A stretch of DNA of 64,000 bases from the NCBI GenBank assembly GCA_024641705.1, contig JAHECO010000003.1:1-64000 (forward strand), given 5' to 3'. The position numbers and the translations under genes are program-made. The notes beneath the pieces are model-generated. The model was not told the origin of the DNA and made no database searches. It saw only the letters and a program-made list of their open reading frames with translations. Each line of letters begins with the position of its first letter. Within the stretch, counting starts at the first letter, position 1. Positions 18,692 through 63,956 of this stretch are shown here, in pieces. The DNA comes from Candidatus Kryptoniota bacterium. GTDB lineage: Bacteria > Bacteroidota > Ignavibacteria > Kryptoniales > JAKASW01.

Positions 18692-20452
18692 GAGGCTGTC
18701 CCAAAAGTAAACGGTAAGATGGAACGGGAGAGGGTTGAGATCGTCAAATGGATAAATGGAGGAAGAAGAGATGCAAGAACAAGCAACGACACTATTTGGC
18801 GAGATAGCGAAGGAAGAGAAAGGCAAGAGGAAGAAAGGGAGACAGGTGTTCAAGCCGTACGAACAGAACCAGATGATGTTATTACCACCGAGCCTTGAGG
18901 AGCTGATACCGGAGAAGCATATGGTGAGAGTAGTGAACAAGACGATAGATGGATTAAGGATAGAGGCACTGGTATCGACATATGAAGGAGGAGGAACAAG
19001 TGCATATCACCCACTAATGATGTTAAAGGTGCTGGTGTACGCATACGTGTCGAAGATATATTCATCGAGAAAGATAGCAAAGGCACTGAGAGAGGATGTG
19101 AATTTTATGTGGCTGTCGGGGATGAACCGGCCAGACTTCAGGACGATTAATGCGTTCCGGTCAGGACGGCTGAAGAGGGTGATAGATGAAGTGTTCGGAA
19201 CGATGACGCTGTTCTTGATTGAACACGGATATGTGGATTTAGAGGAATACTTTGTAGATGGGACGAAGATTAGGGCAGACAACAACAAGCACAAGGTAGT
19301 ATGGAAAAAGAACACAAAGCGATACAAGCAGAAGGTCCAGGAGAAGATAAAGGGATTGTTGAAGGAGATAGAGGAAGTAAACGAGGAGGAGAACAAACGA
19401 TACGGGGACAGAGACCTTGAAGAGATGGGAGAAGGGACTGATTTGACAAGCGAAGACGTGAAGGAACAGATAAAGAAGATAAACGAGATAATCAAGAAGG
19501 TGCCGAAGGACAACAAGAAGGCCACCAAAGCAGTGAGGGAAATCGAGACAAAACTGACTCCGAAGCTTGAGAGATATGAAGAACAGGGAAAGAGATTAGC
19601 TGGGCGGAACAGTTATGCAAAGACGGACACAGATGCGACGGTGTTCCGAATGAAGGACGGACAGTTACTGCCGGCGTACAACCTTATCATAGGTACACAA
19701 AATCAGTTCATACTGAACTTCAGTTTCAACCAGAGGAAAGCGTCGGAGAGCAATGGACTCATAGAACACTTACGACACGGGAAAAGGATTATGGGCCGTC
19801 ACCCATCGGTGGTAGTCGGAGGTAGCGCGTATGGGAGCGAAGAGAACTATGCATTCCTGGAGAAAGAGGAGATTGGAAATTATCTCAAATACAACACGTT
19901 CCATATCGAGAAGAATAGGAAGTTCAGAGACAATCCATATCGGAAGGAGAATTTTCCATACGATCGGGGAACAGACACATATAGATGTCCACAAGACCGG
20001 CCACTGAATTTTAAAGAAACCAGAAAAGTAACGACGGACAACGGATATGAGACTGAGATCAGAATTTACCGGTGTACCGACTGTAGCAACTGCTCTGTCA
20101 GCAATATGTGTAAGCGTGGTGAAGGCAACCGAACGATCCAGATAAATCGGAAATTGGAAGCATATCGTACACAGGCACGAGCCAATCTTGAGTCAGAAAA
20201 AGGGATTGCTCTGCGCAAGGAACGTGGAGTCGATGTCGAGCCTGTTTTTGCGGACATAAAACTAAACCAGAGCTACCAAAGGTTCAGATTAAGAGGTCAA
20301 GAAAAAGTAAATGTAGAGATGGGACTTCTGAGCATTGCCCACAACACAAAGAAGATGGCCTTATGGATCAATTAGGCTAGAAGGCATCACTACTATCCAA
20401 TCCTCCTTCAAGTCGTCTTCCTTGATCCGTACGCCTTGTTTTAGGACAACCA
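18692..20452 (+). mobile_element. IS1182-like insertion sequence
   Basis: One transposase gene lies between imperfect inverted ends: GAGGCTGTCCCAAAAG on the left and, read from the right, GTGGTTGTCCTAAAACAAGG. I see no convincing target duplication. The DNA is AGA-rich and more AT-rich than the metabolic genes around it. It separates the HOGA-like gene from the aminotransferase gene. Confidence 0.8.
18756..20375 (+). CDS. IS1182-family DDE transposase, second catalytic Asp replaced
   Basis: 539 residues. N-terminal DUF772-type part (YHPLMMLKVLVYAYVSKIYSSRKIAKAL, near 87-114), first catalytic aspartate D168 in YFVDGTKIRADNN, a lysine/glutamate-rich coiled coil (about 180-270), a zinc-binding CxxC-type cluster near 443-456 (CTDCSNCSVSNMC), and E495 in RGVDVEPVFADIK. 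The second Asp normally lies in an AD-S/A-x-YGSEENY motif; here the sequence is VVGGSAYGSEENY, with G356 in its place (GGT, one transition from GAT). The frame is otherwise full length. This copy is probably unable to transpose. Confidence 0.9.
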   Translation: MEEEEMQEQATTLFGEIAKEEKGKRKKGRQVFKPYEQNQMMLLPPSLEELIPEKHMVRVVNKTIDGLRIEALVSTYEGGGTSAYHPLMMLKVLVYAYVSKIYSSRKIAKALREDVNFMWLSGMNRPDFRTINAFRSGRLKRVIDEVFGTMTLFLIEHGYVDLEEYFVDGTKIRADNNKHKVVWKKNTKRYKQKVQEKIKGLLKEIEEVNEEENKRYGDRDLEEMGEGTDLTSEDVKEQIKKINEIIKKVPKDNKKATKAVREIETKLTPKLERYEEQGKRLAGRNSYAKTDTDATVFRMKDGQLLPAYNLIIGTQNQFILNFSFNQRKASESNGLIEHLRHGKRIMGRHPSVVVGGSAYGSEENYAFLEKEEIGNYLKYNTFHIEKNRKFRDNPYRKENFPYDRGTDTYRCPQDRPLNFKETRKVTTDNGYETEIRIYRCTDCSNCSVSNMCKRGEGNRTIQINRKLEAYRTQARANLESEKGIALRKERGVDVEPVFADIKLNQSYQRFRLRGQEKVNVEMGLLSIAHNTKKMALWIN

Positions 20453-20510
20453 CATTAAGGTGGGGGTGAGGCCATGAAATGGAAAAGCTGCGCTTTTGTG
20501 GACAAGTGAA

Positions 20511-20948
20511 ATGAGAAGCAAGCTAACGCCGATCGCTCGAGGATTGCGCAGGCGCATGACCGAGGCCGAGCGATGGTTGTGGAAAGCTCTCCGCGGCAAG
20601 CGGCTGGAAGGCTTGAAGTTCAGAAGGCAGCAGCCGATAGATCCTTTCATCGTCGACTTCGTTTGCTTTGAAAAGAAATTGGTCATAGAAGCCGATGGCG
20701 GCCAACACTTCGAAGGTGAACAAAAGGAGAAAGACCTCGACAGAGACCGCTGGCTTCGTGAGCAAGGATTTGAAGTTCTTAGATTCAGTAATTCAGAAAT
20801 AATGACAAGTACTGACGGTGTGATTACGAGAATATTGGAACACACCATTGTATCTCCATCTGTGCCCGGAGACCCCTCTCCCTCGAAGGGAGAGGGTGGT
20901 GGTGTGGCAATGTTTCTCAAACACGTGTTTAGTAGGAGATGCAAATGA
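20511..20948 (+). CDS. DUF559 endonuclease-like protein
   Basis: 145 residues of the DUF559 (Vsr-like, PD-(D/E)XK) family: RRRMTEAERWLWKALRGKRLEGLKFRRQQPIDPFIVDFVC, then LVIEADGGQHFEG with the acidic residue and Q-x-H of the nuclease core, and FEVLRFSNSEI. The ATG at 20511 is preferred to a TTG at 20496. After the nuclease core an extra tail of about 25 residues is encoded across a palindrome (20874-20896). The stop overlaps the ATG of the aminotransferase gene by 4 bases, so translation may be coupled. Cellular role unknown; the gene looks inserted in the catabolic block together with the IS. Confidence 0.88.
   Translation: MRSKLTPIARGLRRRMTEAERWLWKALRGKRLEGLKFRRQQPIDPFIVDFVCFEKKLVIEADGGQHFEGEQKEKDLDRDRWLREQGFEVLRFSNSEIMTSTDGVITRILEHTIVSPSVPGDPSPSKGEGGGVAMFLKHVFSRRCK
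20874..20896. repeat. Palindrome in the 3' end of the DUF559 gene
   Basis: CCCTCTCCCT and AGGGAGAGGG flank a 3-base loop. DUF559 genes in other genomes are, as I recall, often followed by or contain short CCCTC/GAGGG palindromes; here it is inside the coding frame. Confidence 0.7.
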
Positions 20949-31933: not shown

Positions 31934-32062
31934 GAGGTTGTCCAGAAAGTCTTGTCTGTCATGCTGAACGAAGTGAAGCATCCATTTTTCAGAACGAATA
32001 AGTGGATTCTTCAGTCGCTCCGCTCCTTCAGAATGACATTTTCCTTGTTTTGGGACAACCTC
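31934..32062. mobile_element. 129-bp miniature element (MITE), copy A
   Basis: Ends are GAGGTTGTCC and GGACAACCTC. Its reverse complement matches the element at 63828-63956 with about two differences over 129 bases. It has no coding potential. Its GGTTGTCCCAAAACAAGG end is nearly the same as the right end of the IS at 18692-20452, so an IS1182-type transposase could move it. Confidence 0.85.
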
Positions 32063-63827: not shown

Positions 63828-63956
63828 GAGGTTGTCCCAAAACAAGGAAAATGTCATTCTGAAGGAGCGGAGCGACTGAAGAATCCACTTATTCGTTCTG
63901 AAAAATGGATGCTTCACTTCGTTCAGCATGACAGACAAGACTTTCTGGACAGCCTC
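63828..63956. mobile_element. 129-bp miniature element (MITE), copy B
   Basis: Inverse copy of the element at 31934-32062, with ends GAGGTTGTCC and GGACAGCCTC. It is flanked by GTTAACT and AGTTAAC, which extend the inverted ends. It sits 17 bases after the stop of the sorting-domain protein gene. Confidence 0.85.

Follow-up and report, generated by a model that had tools for sequence, protein, structure and literature searches.

Two near-identical 129-bp elements in the window (the whole stretch of 64,000 nucleotides analysed here) are very probably copies of a non-autonomous MITE with IS1182-type ends, moved in trans by an IS1182-family DDE transposase and inserting by stem-loop replacement. 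The host genome carries about 70 near-identical copies with IS1182-like ends and no target duplication, and at seven sites, in this and other genomes, a hairpin is lost where the element sits. The initial annotation of this DNA had proposed a recently moved MITE with IS1182-type ends; the hairpin replacement and a family sharing the element's core across phyla are additions to it.

Anatomy and copy number of the element

The two elements lie in inverse orientation, as initially described. The alignment of positions 31934-32062 with the reverse complement of 63828-63956 has one mismatch, which falls inside the terminal repeat (GGACAACC vs GGACAGCC). The features, read from the sequence unless stated otherwise, are as follows.

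31934..32062, minus strand (canonical orientation, AACAAGG end first): MITE copy 1, 129 bp
31934..31943, plus strand: terminal inverted repeat of copy 1, GAGGTTGTCC
31957..31983, plus strand: inner arm of copy 1, TGTCATGCTGAACGAAGTGAAGCATCC (sequence and cross-phylum alignment)
32004..32038, minus strand: inner arm of copy 1, TGTCATTCTGAAGGAGCGGAGCGACTGAAGAATCC as read on the minus strand (sequence, core matches and cross-phylum alignment)
32053..32062, plus strand: terminal inverted repeat of copy 1, GGACAACCTC
63828..63956, plus strand: MITE copy 2, 129 bp, one base different from copy 1

Copy 2 starts 17 bp past a stop codon, and its flanks (gttaact and agttaac) are complementary. The consensus of the element reads GAGGTTGTCCCAAAACAAGG...CTTTCTGGACAGCCTC. 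Its inner pair is REP-like, and the layout is an inverted pair, TGTCATTCTGA...GAAGAATC, within IS1182-like ends.

The host genome (G000) is a draft of 4.62 Mb in 95 contigs. Searching all of it with the 33-bp inner core gave 65 exact matches, or 71 when up to three mismatches were allowed, and none with the reversed pattern used as a control. In the stretches taken from the genome, the element aligns at 71 separate places. The copy number is thus around 70, at unrelated sites and in both orientations; the initial annotation, which suggested counting the copies, knew of two. This count is approximate because about six copies are truncated by contig ends and because two pairs of loci (L006/L054 and L069/L073) have flanks in common within each pair and may represent duplicated DNA. 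Flanks were readable for 62 copies: 40 are identical to the consensus, 17 are one base off and five are two bases off. This near identity indicates a recent burst and bears out the recent movement proposed initially. The element is therefore short, lacks a transposase gene and occurs in many near-identical dispersed copies, as a MITE does. Full-length homologues are nearly absent from the genus relatives.

The same genome contains other REP-like repeats, GTCATTCTGA...GAAGAATCC and GTCATTGCGAG...GCAATCCCC (L114, L137, L141, L144, L150, L156, L162). Their outer arms are constant and the enclosed hairpin varies by copy, as would result from an exchange of inner hairpins. At L174 (1309-2049), a MITE copy read in frame forms the N-terminal part of an ORF with a Y1 transposase domain; hence, the annotated start of this ORF may be extended by MITE sequence.

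IS1182-family elements with similar ends

The window also holds an IS1182-family insertion sequence.

18692..20453 (approximate), plus strand: IS1182-family insertion sequence with ends of the MITE kind (end comparison)
18756..20375, plus strand: IS1182 transposase, open frame of 539 aa (ORF, NCBIfam)
19821..19823, plus strand: transposase codon 356, at the second D of the DDE triad; GGT (Gly) here, Asp in the C91 copy and in three relatives

One end of the MITE, GGTTGTCCCAAAACAAGG, equals the right end of this IS, GGTTGTCCTAAAACAAGG, at 17 of 18 bases, so the end match noted initially stands. This end has AACAAGG inside the repeat; the other, with AAAAG inside the repeat, resembles the left end of the IS. 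The transposase scores 399 bits against the NCBIfam IS1182 model NF033551 (cut-off 270). Where it reads VVGGSAYGS, a D is present in the C91 enzyme and in three more distant relatives, and this change of the second catalytic aspartate to glycine, with DDE residue roles assigned by alignment alone, suggests that the enzyme is probably inactive, though its frame is whole. The initial annotation had judged that this copy seems dead, which agrees with the substitution.

The C91 transposase has an open frame of 536 aa, is 84% identical to the window copy and keeps the second D. A third IS1182-like gene, on C63, is distant. When the MITE was aligned with the IS1182 copies, as the initial annotation had suggested, both close copies (window and C91) proved to have ends of the MITE kind, resembling but not identical to it; the C91 IS agrees with the MITE at 17 of 20 bases at one end. 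No IS with exactly the ends of the MITE was found in the part of the genome that was read as sequence (roughly 1.4 Mb, about 30%), the rest being covered by protein, DNA and pattern searches only. The C91 copy is the foremost candidate for the mobilising enzyme, despite the imperfect match between its ends and those of the MITE. The source of the burst may be this transposase or a close relative that was lost or is unassembled.

In Labilibaculum filiforme, a full-length IS1182 transposase (424.5 bits) lies in an element with the ends GAGGGTGTCC...GGACACCCTC, similar to the local MITEs. In the same species, GAGGGTGTCCAAAATTAAGGACATCCTC stands at one IS1182 end (L332, 1332-1359), with both terminal repeats near back to back within 28 bp, followed by T's. 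Within about 50 bp past the IS1182 copies of the window (20496-20948) and of L032 (after 3182) there is in each case an ORF that, judged by eye, looks like that of a DUF559 endonuclease-like protein.

Insertions without target duplication

Target site duplication is usual in MITEs but not universal. Among the 62 copies of the host genome, flank matches of at least 3 bp occurred in two (1.1 expected) and matches of at least 4 bp in none. Copies in other genomes gave the same picture, with no match of at least 3 bp, and hence none of at least 4 bp, in 65. When the two end bases were counted as part of the target, matches of at least 4 bp were found in 3 of 62 copies, within the range of shuffles. 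The flanks of the own-genome copies retain some complementarity to each other, exceeding all of 400 re-pairings, although the excess is modest (mean of 2.96 vs 2.37).

A single hairpin is gone where the element sits

To find empty sites, we looked for second locations of each flank pair in the same genome and in relatives. Seven were recovered: four in the host genome, which are paralogous and not strain polymorphisms, one in the relative G092 and two orthologous between Labilibaculum species. At all seven, the position taken by the element in the occupied copy holds a single stem-loop of 19-29 bp. The removed segments measure 19, 24, 19, 22, 19, 29 and 25 bp, with stems of 7, 11, 9, 9, 9, 13 and 9 bp, respectively. 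Such end-to-end stems (7-13 bp) are found in 0.0005-0.075% of random segments of equal length from the host genome, with one base of slack allowed.

At the four sites of the host genome (L012, L065, L046, L035), the extra segment measures 19 to 24 bp and forms a hairpin over its whole length. The element takes its place with junctions no more than one base from the foot of the stem; those at L065 and L012 are one base off. L065 (about 2000-2440) contains two tandem tRNA-like copies beside an intact tRNA-Arg (TCT); the hairpin resembling an anticodon arm is enlarged in one and replaced by the MITE in the other. The fifth site (L270/L293, in G092) also involves tandem paralogs, with one hairpin replaced. 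G092 is of the same class as the host and shares its sequence stretches with a public MAG labelled Ignavibacteria, where the host probably belongs too. The remaining two, L253 and L255 of Labilibaculum manganireducens, have empty orthologues in L. euxinus and Labilibaculum sp. K2S, where an intrinsic terminator hairpin followed by T's stands in place of the element. Besides the two intrinsic terminators, the replaced structures include a tRNA-like anticodon arm and a REP-like hairpin. In sum, the target stem-loop is missing after insertion and no target duplication is present, which together characterise stem-loop-replacing transposition.

No empty site was recovered for either window copy, nor for L231 of Labilibaculum, because the flanks of the latter are not conserved. 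The genus relatives yielded none: their identity around window copy 1 is about 75%, too low for intergenic DNA to align.

Terminators as probable targets in Marinifilaceae-type genomes

In Marinifilaceae-type genomes, four or more T's among the six bases next to the right end were counted in 26 of 40 copies (control 12%; binomial 7e-15), and four or more A's to the left in 24 of 40 (control 13%; binomial 4e-12), values to be read with the caveat that the copies are not fully independent. An A-tract and a T-tract around most of these copies are a setting typical of terminators, and most of them look as if they had replaced intrinsic terminators. The end repeat of the element, together with the kept T-tract, could then serve as a new terminator. 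For comparison, the signature was seen in 1 of 62 copies in the host genome, where the targets are therefore mostly other hairpins.

A family of elements across phyla

We searched public genome contigs for an IS1182-like end joined to the start of the core and found at least 78 stretches with this pattern. The matches listed include Labilibaculum, Marinifilum, Marinilabilia, Flavobacterium, Prolixibacteraceae, Ignavibacteria, Neomarinimicrobiota and Chloroflexi (including Dehalococcoidales), and many of them are complete elements of 121-145 bp. Elements of the same layout thus occur, among these matches, in Bacteroidota, Chloroflexi and Neomarinimicrobiota. Single matches are labelled Chthoniobacterales and Spirochaetes; no second end was recognised there, and the taxon label of a MAG may not hold for each of its contigs. 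Of 395 genomes sampled from the host's own phylum, 4 contained the exact pattern (own genome counted), so the distribution is patchy. As the search was seeded with the core, it is silent on IS1182-type MITEs that do not have it.

In an alignment of twelve elements, GAGGNTGTCC, TGTCATTCTGA and AGAATC are found in nearly all, and the second arm ends in ATGACA in most. Other terminal repeats, GAGCTTGTGTAAAAA, GACTTCTGAGAAA and CAGGTTGTTGAAAAAG, enclose the core at L079, L100 (G073), L082 (G075) and L085 (G092); they are possibly variant IS1182-type ends. Related arms occur singly in the host genome. Several elements of the same family, in Labilibaculum (L207, L214, L244, L255) and in Ignavibacteria (L270, L289), carry differing extra hairpins inside the core arm, TCCCGATAGCTATCGGGA and CCTGCCTGCC...GGCAGGCAGG, which form hairpins within a hairpin. 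A search for the core motif as text in the literature returned nothing relevant, most subscription journals lying outside it.

These observations allow a broader reading, which we put forward tentatively and regard as somewhat less probable than its negation: a hairpin-for-hairpin MITE family with IS1182-type ends and a conserved inner pair would have spread between phyla, replacing terminators or REP-like hairpins and supplying a substitute. Insertion would then cost the host little, since a substitute hairpin is supplied, and the conserved core might have a function of its own, e.g., aiding cruciform extrusion of the element.

Mechanism and alternative explanations

Under the reading that we favour, an IS1182-family DDE transposase would move the MITE in trans, the target hairpin would be cut away at its base, and the element would be joined to the two feet of the removed hairpin, so that no target duplication would arise. 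The similarity of the ends suggests the action in trans. The enzyme may recognise its target as an extruded hairpin or cruciform; the chemistry of the replacement is likewise a proposal.

An ordinary cut-and-paste MITE, with a target duplication that is short or decayed and hairpins that were lost separately, is improbable. The direct repeats commonly made by IS elements and MITEs do fade with age (PMC10969869), yet the copies here are near-identical, hence recent, and their flanks show no excess of direct repeats. Separate losses also fit poorly with the lack of one hairpin at 7 of 7 testable sites, two of them orthologous with closely related species that are empty. Slightly less probable again is a REP/BIME-type repeat moved by a RAYT (Y1 transposase), with incidental IS1182-like ends. 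The REP-like inner pair, the related single repeats in the genome and its four Y1_Tnp matches would suit such a repeat, but the copies terminate at the IS1182-like repeats and not at the inner pair, and just one Y1 locus of the four has the core in its vicinity, in a full-length copy of the ordinary kind. After reading these four loci, we rejected RAYT as the mover for want of an association with them.

We give almost no credence to a conserved structural RNA or another fixed host feature. The initial annotation had named such an RNA, or presence once per lineage at fixed sites devoid of empty-site polymorphism, as outcomes that would speak against it; neither was borne out. The single strand does fold better than shuffles (z of about -4.5), but palindromic MITEs generally do so, and the 64-kb window has no Rfam match at gathering score. 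The dispersal of some 70 copies over unrelated sites, in either orientation, the existence of empty sites and the near absence of full-length homologues from genus relatives all argue against a fixed feature.

Relation to known systems

Stem-loop replacement was reported for a single IS of staphylococci and the composite transposon belonging to it (PMC5678879, PMC4923244). The high-copy, gene-less element studied here displays it outside staphylococci, at seven sites spread over distant lineages; our literature search, itself incomplete, found no report of such an element. Since before and after sequences of two terminators are available as orthologues, they offer natural examples for studying structure-directed targeting. 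The sites show that mobile DNA can take the place of terminators and REP-like hairpins, with the target neither duplicated nor split, and the element may help to explain the TGTCATTCTGA...GAAGAATC repeats in unrelated phyla.

The element resembles prokaryotic MITEs (PMC10969869) in being short and gene-less, with terminal inverted repeats, high copy number, a partner IS and a stable folded strand. It differs from them in replacing a hairpin without target duplication; the text of that review does not mention IS1182. With REP/BIME elements it shares the REP-like inverted pair at its centre, whereas its ends are those of a DDE-type IS and no association with RAYT was seen. The closest parallels are IS1272 and TnSha1 of staphylococci, which target hairpins including terminators and delete the stem-loop bluntly without duplication (PMC5678879, PMC4923244); IS1272, of the IS1182 family, makes no target duplication (PMC5678879). 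Because the behaviour of the MITE matches theirs, the mechanism itself is already known. They have in common IS1182-family ends and enzyme, hairpin targets including terminators, removal of the stem-loop and lack of duplication. Unlike IS1272 and TnSha1, the MITE is a gene-less element of 129 bp with about 70 copies, in a different phylum, and carries a conserved inner inverted pair.
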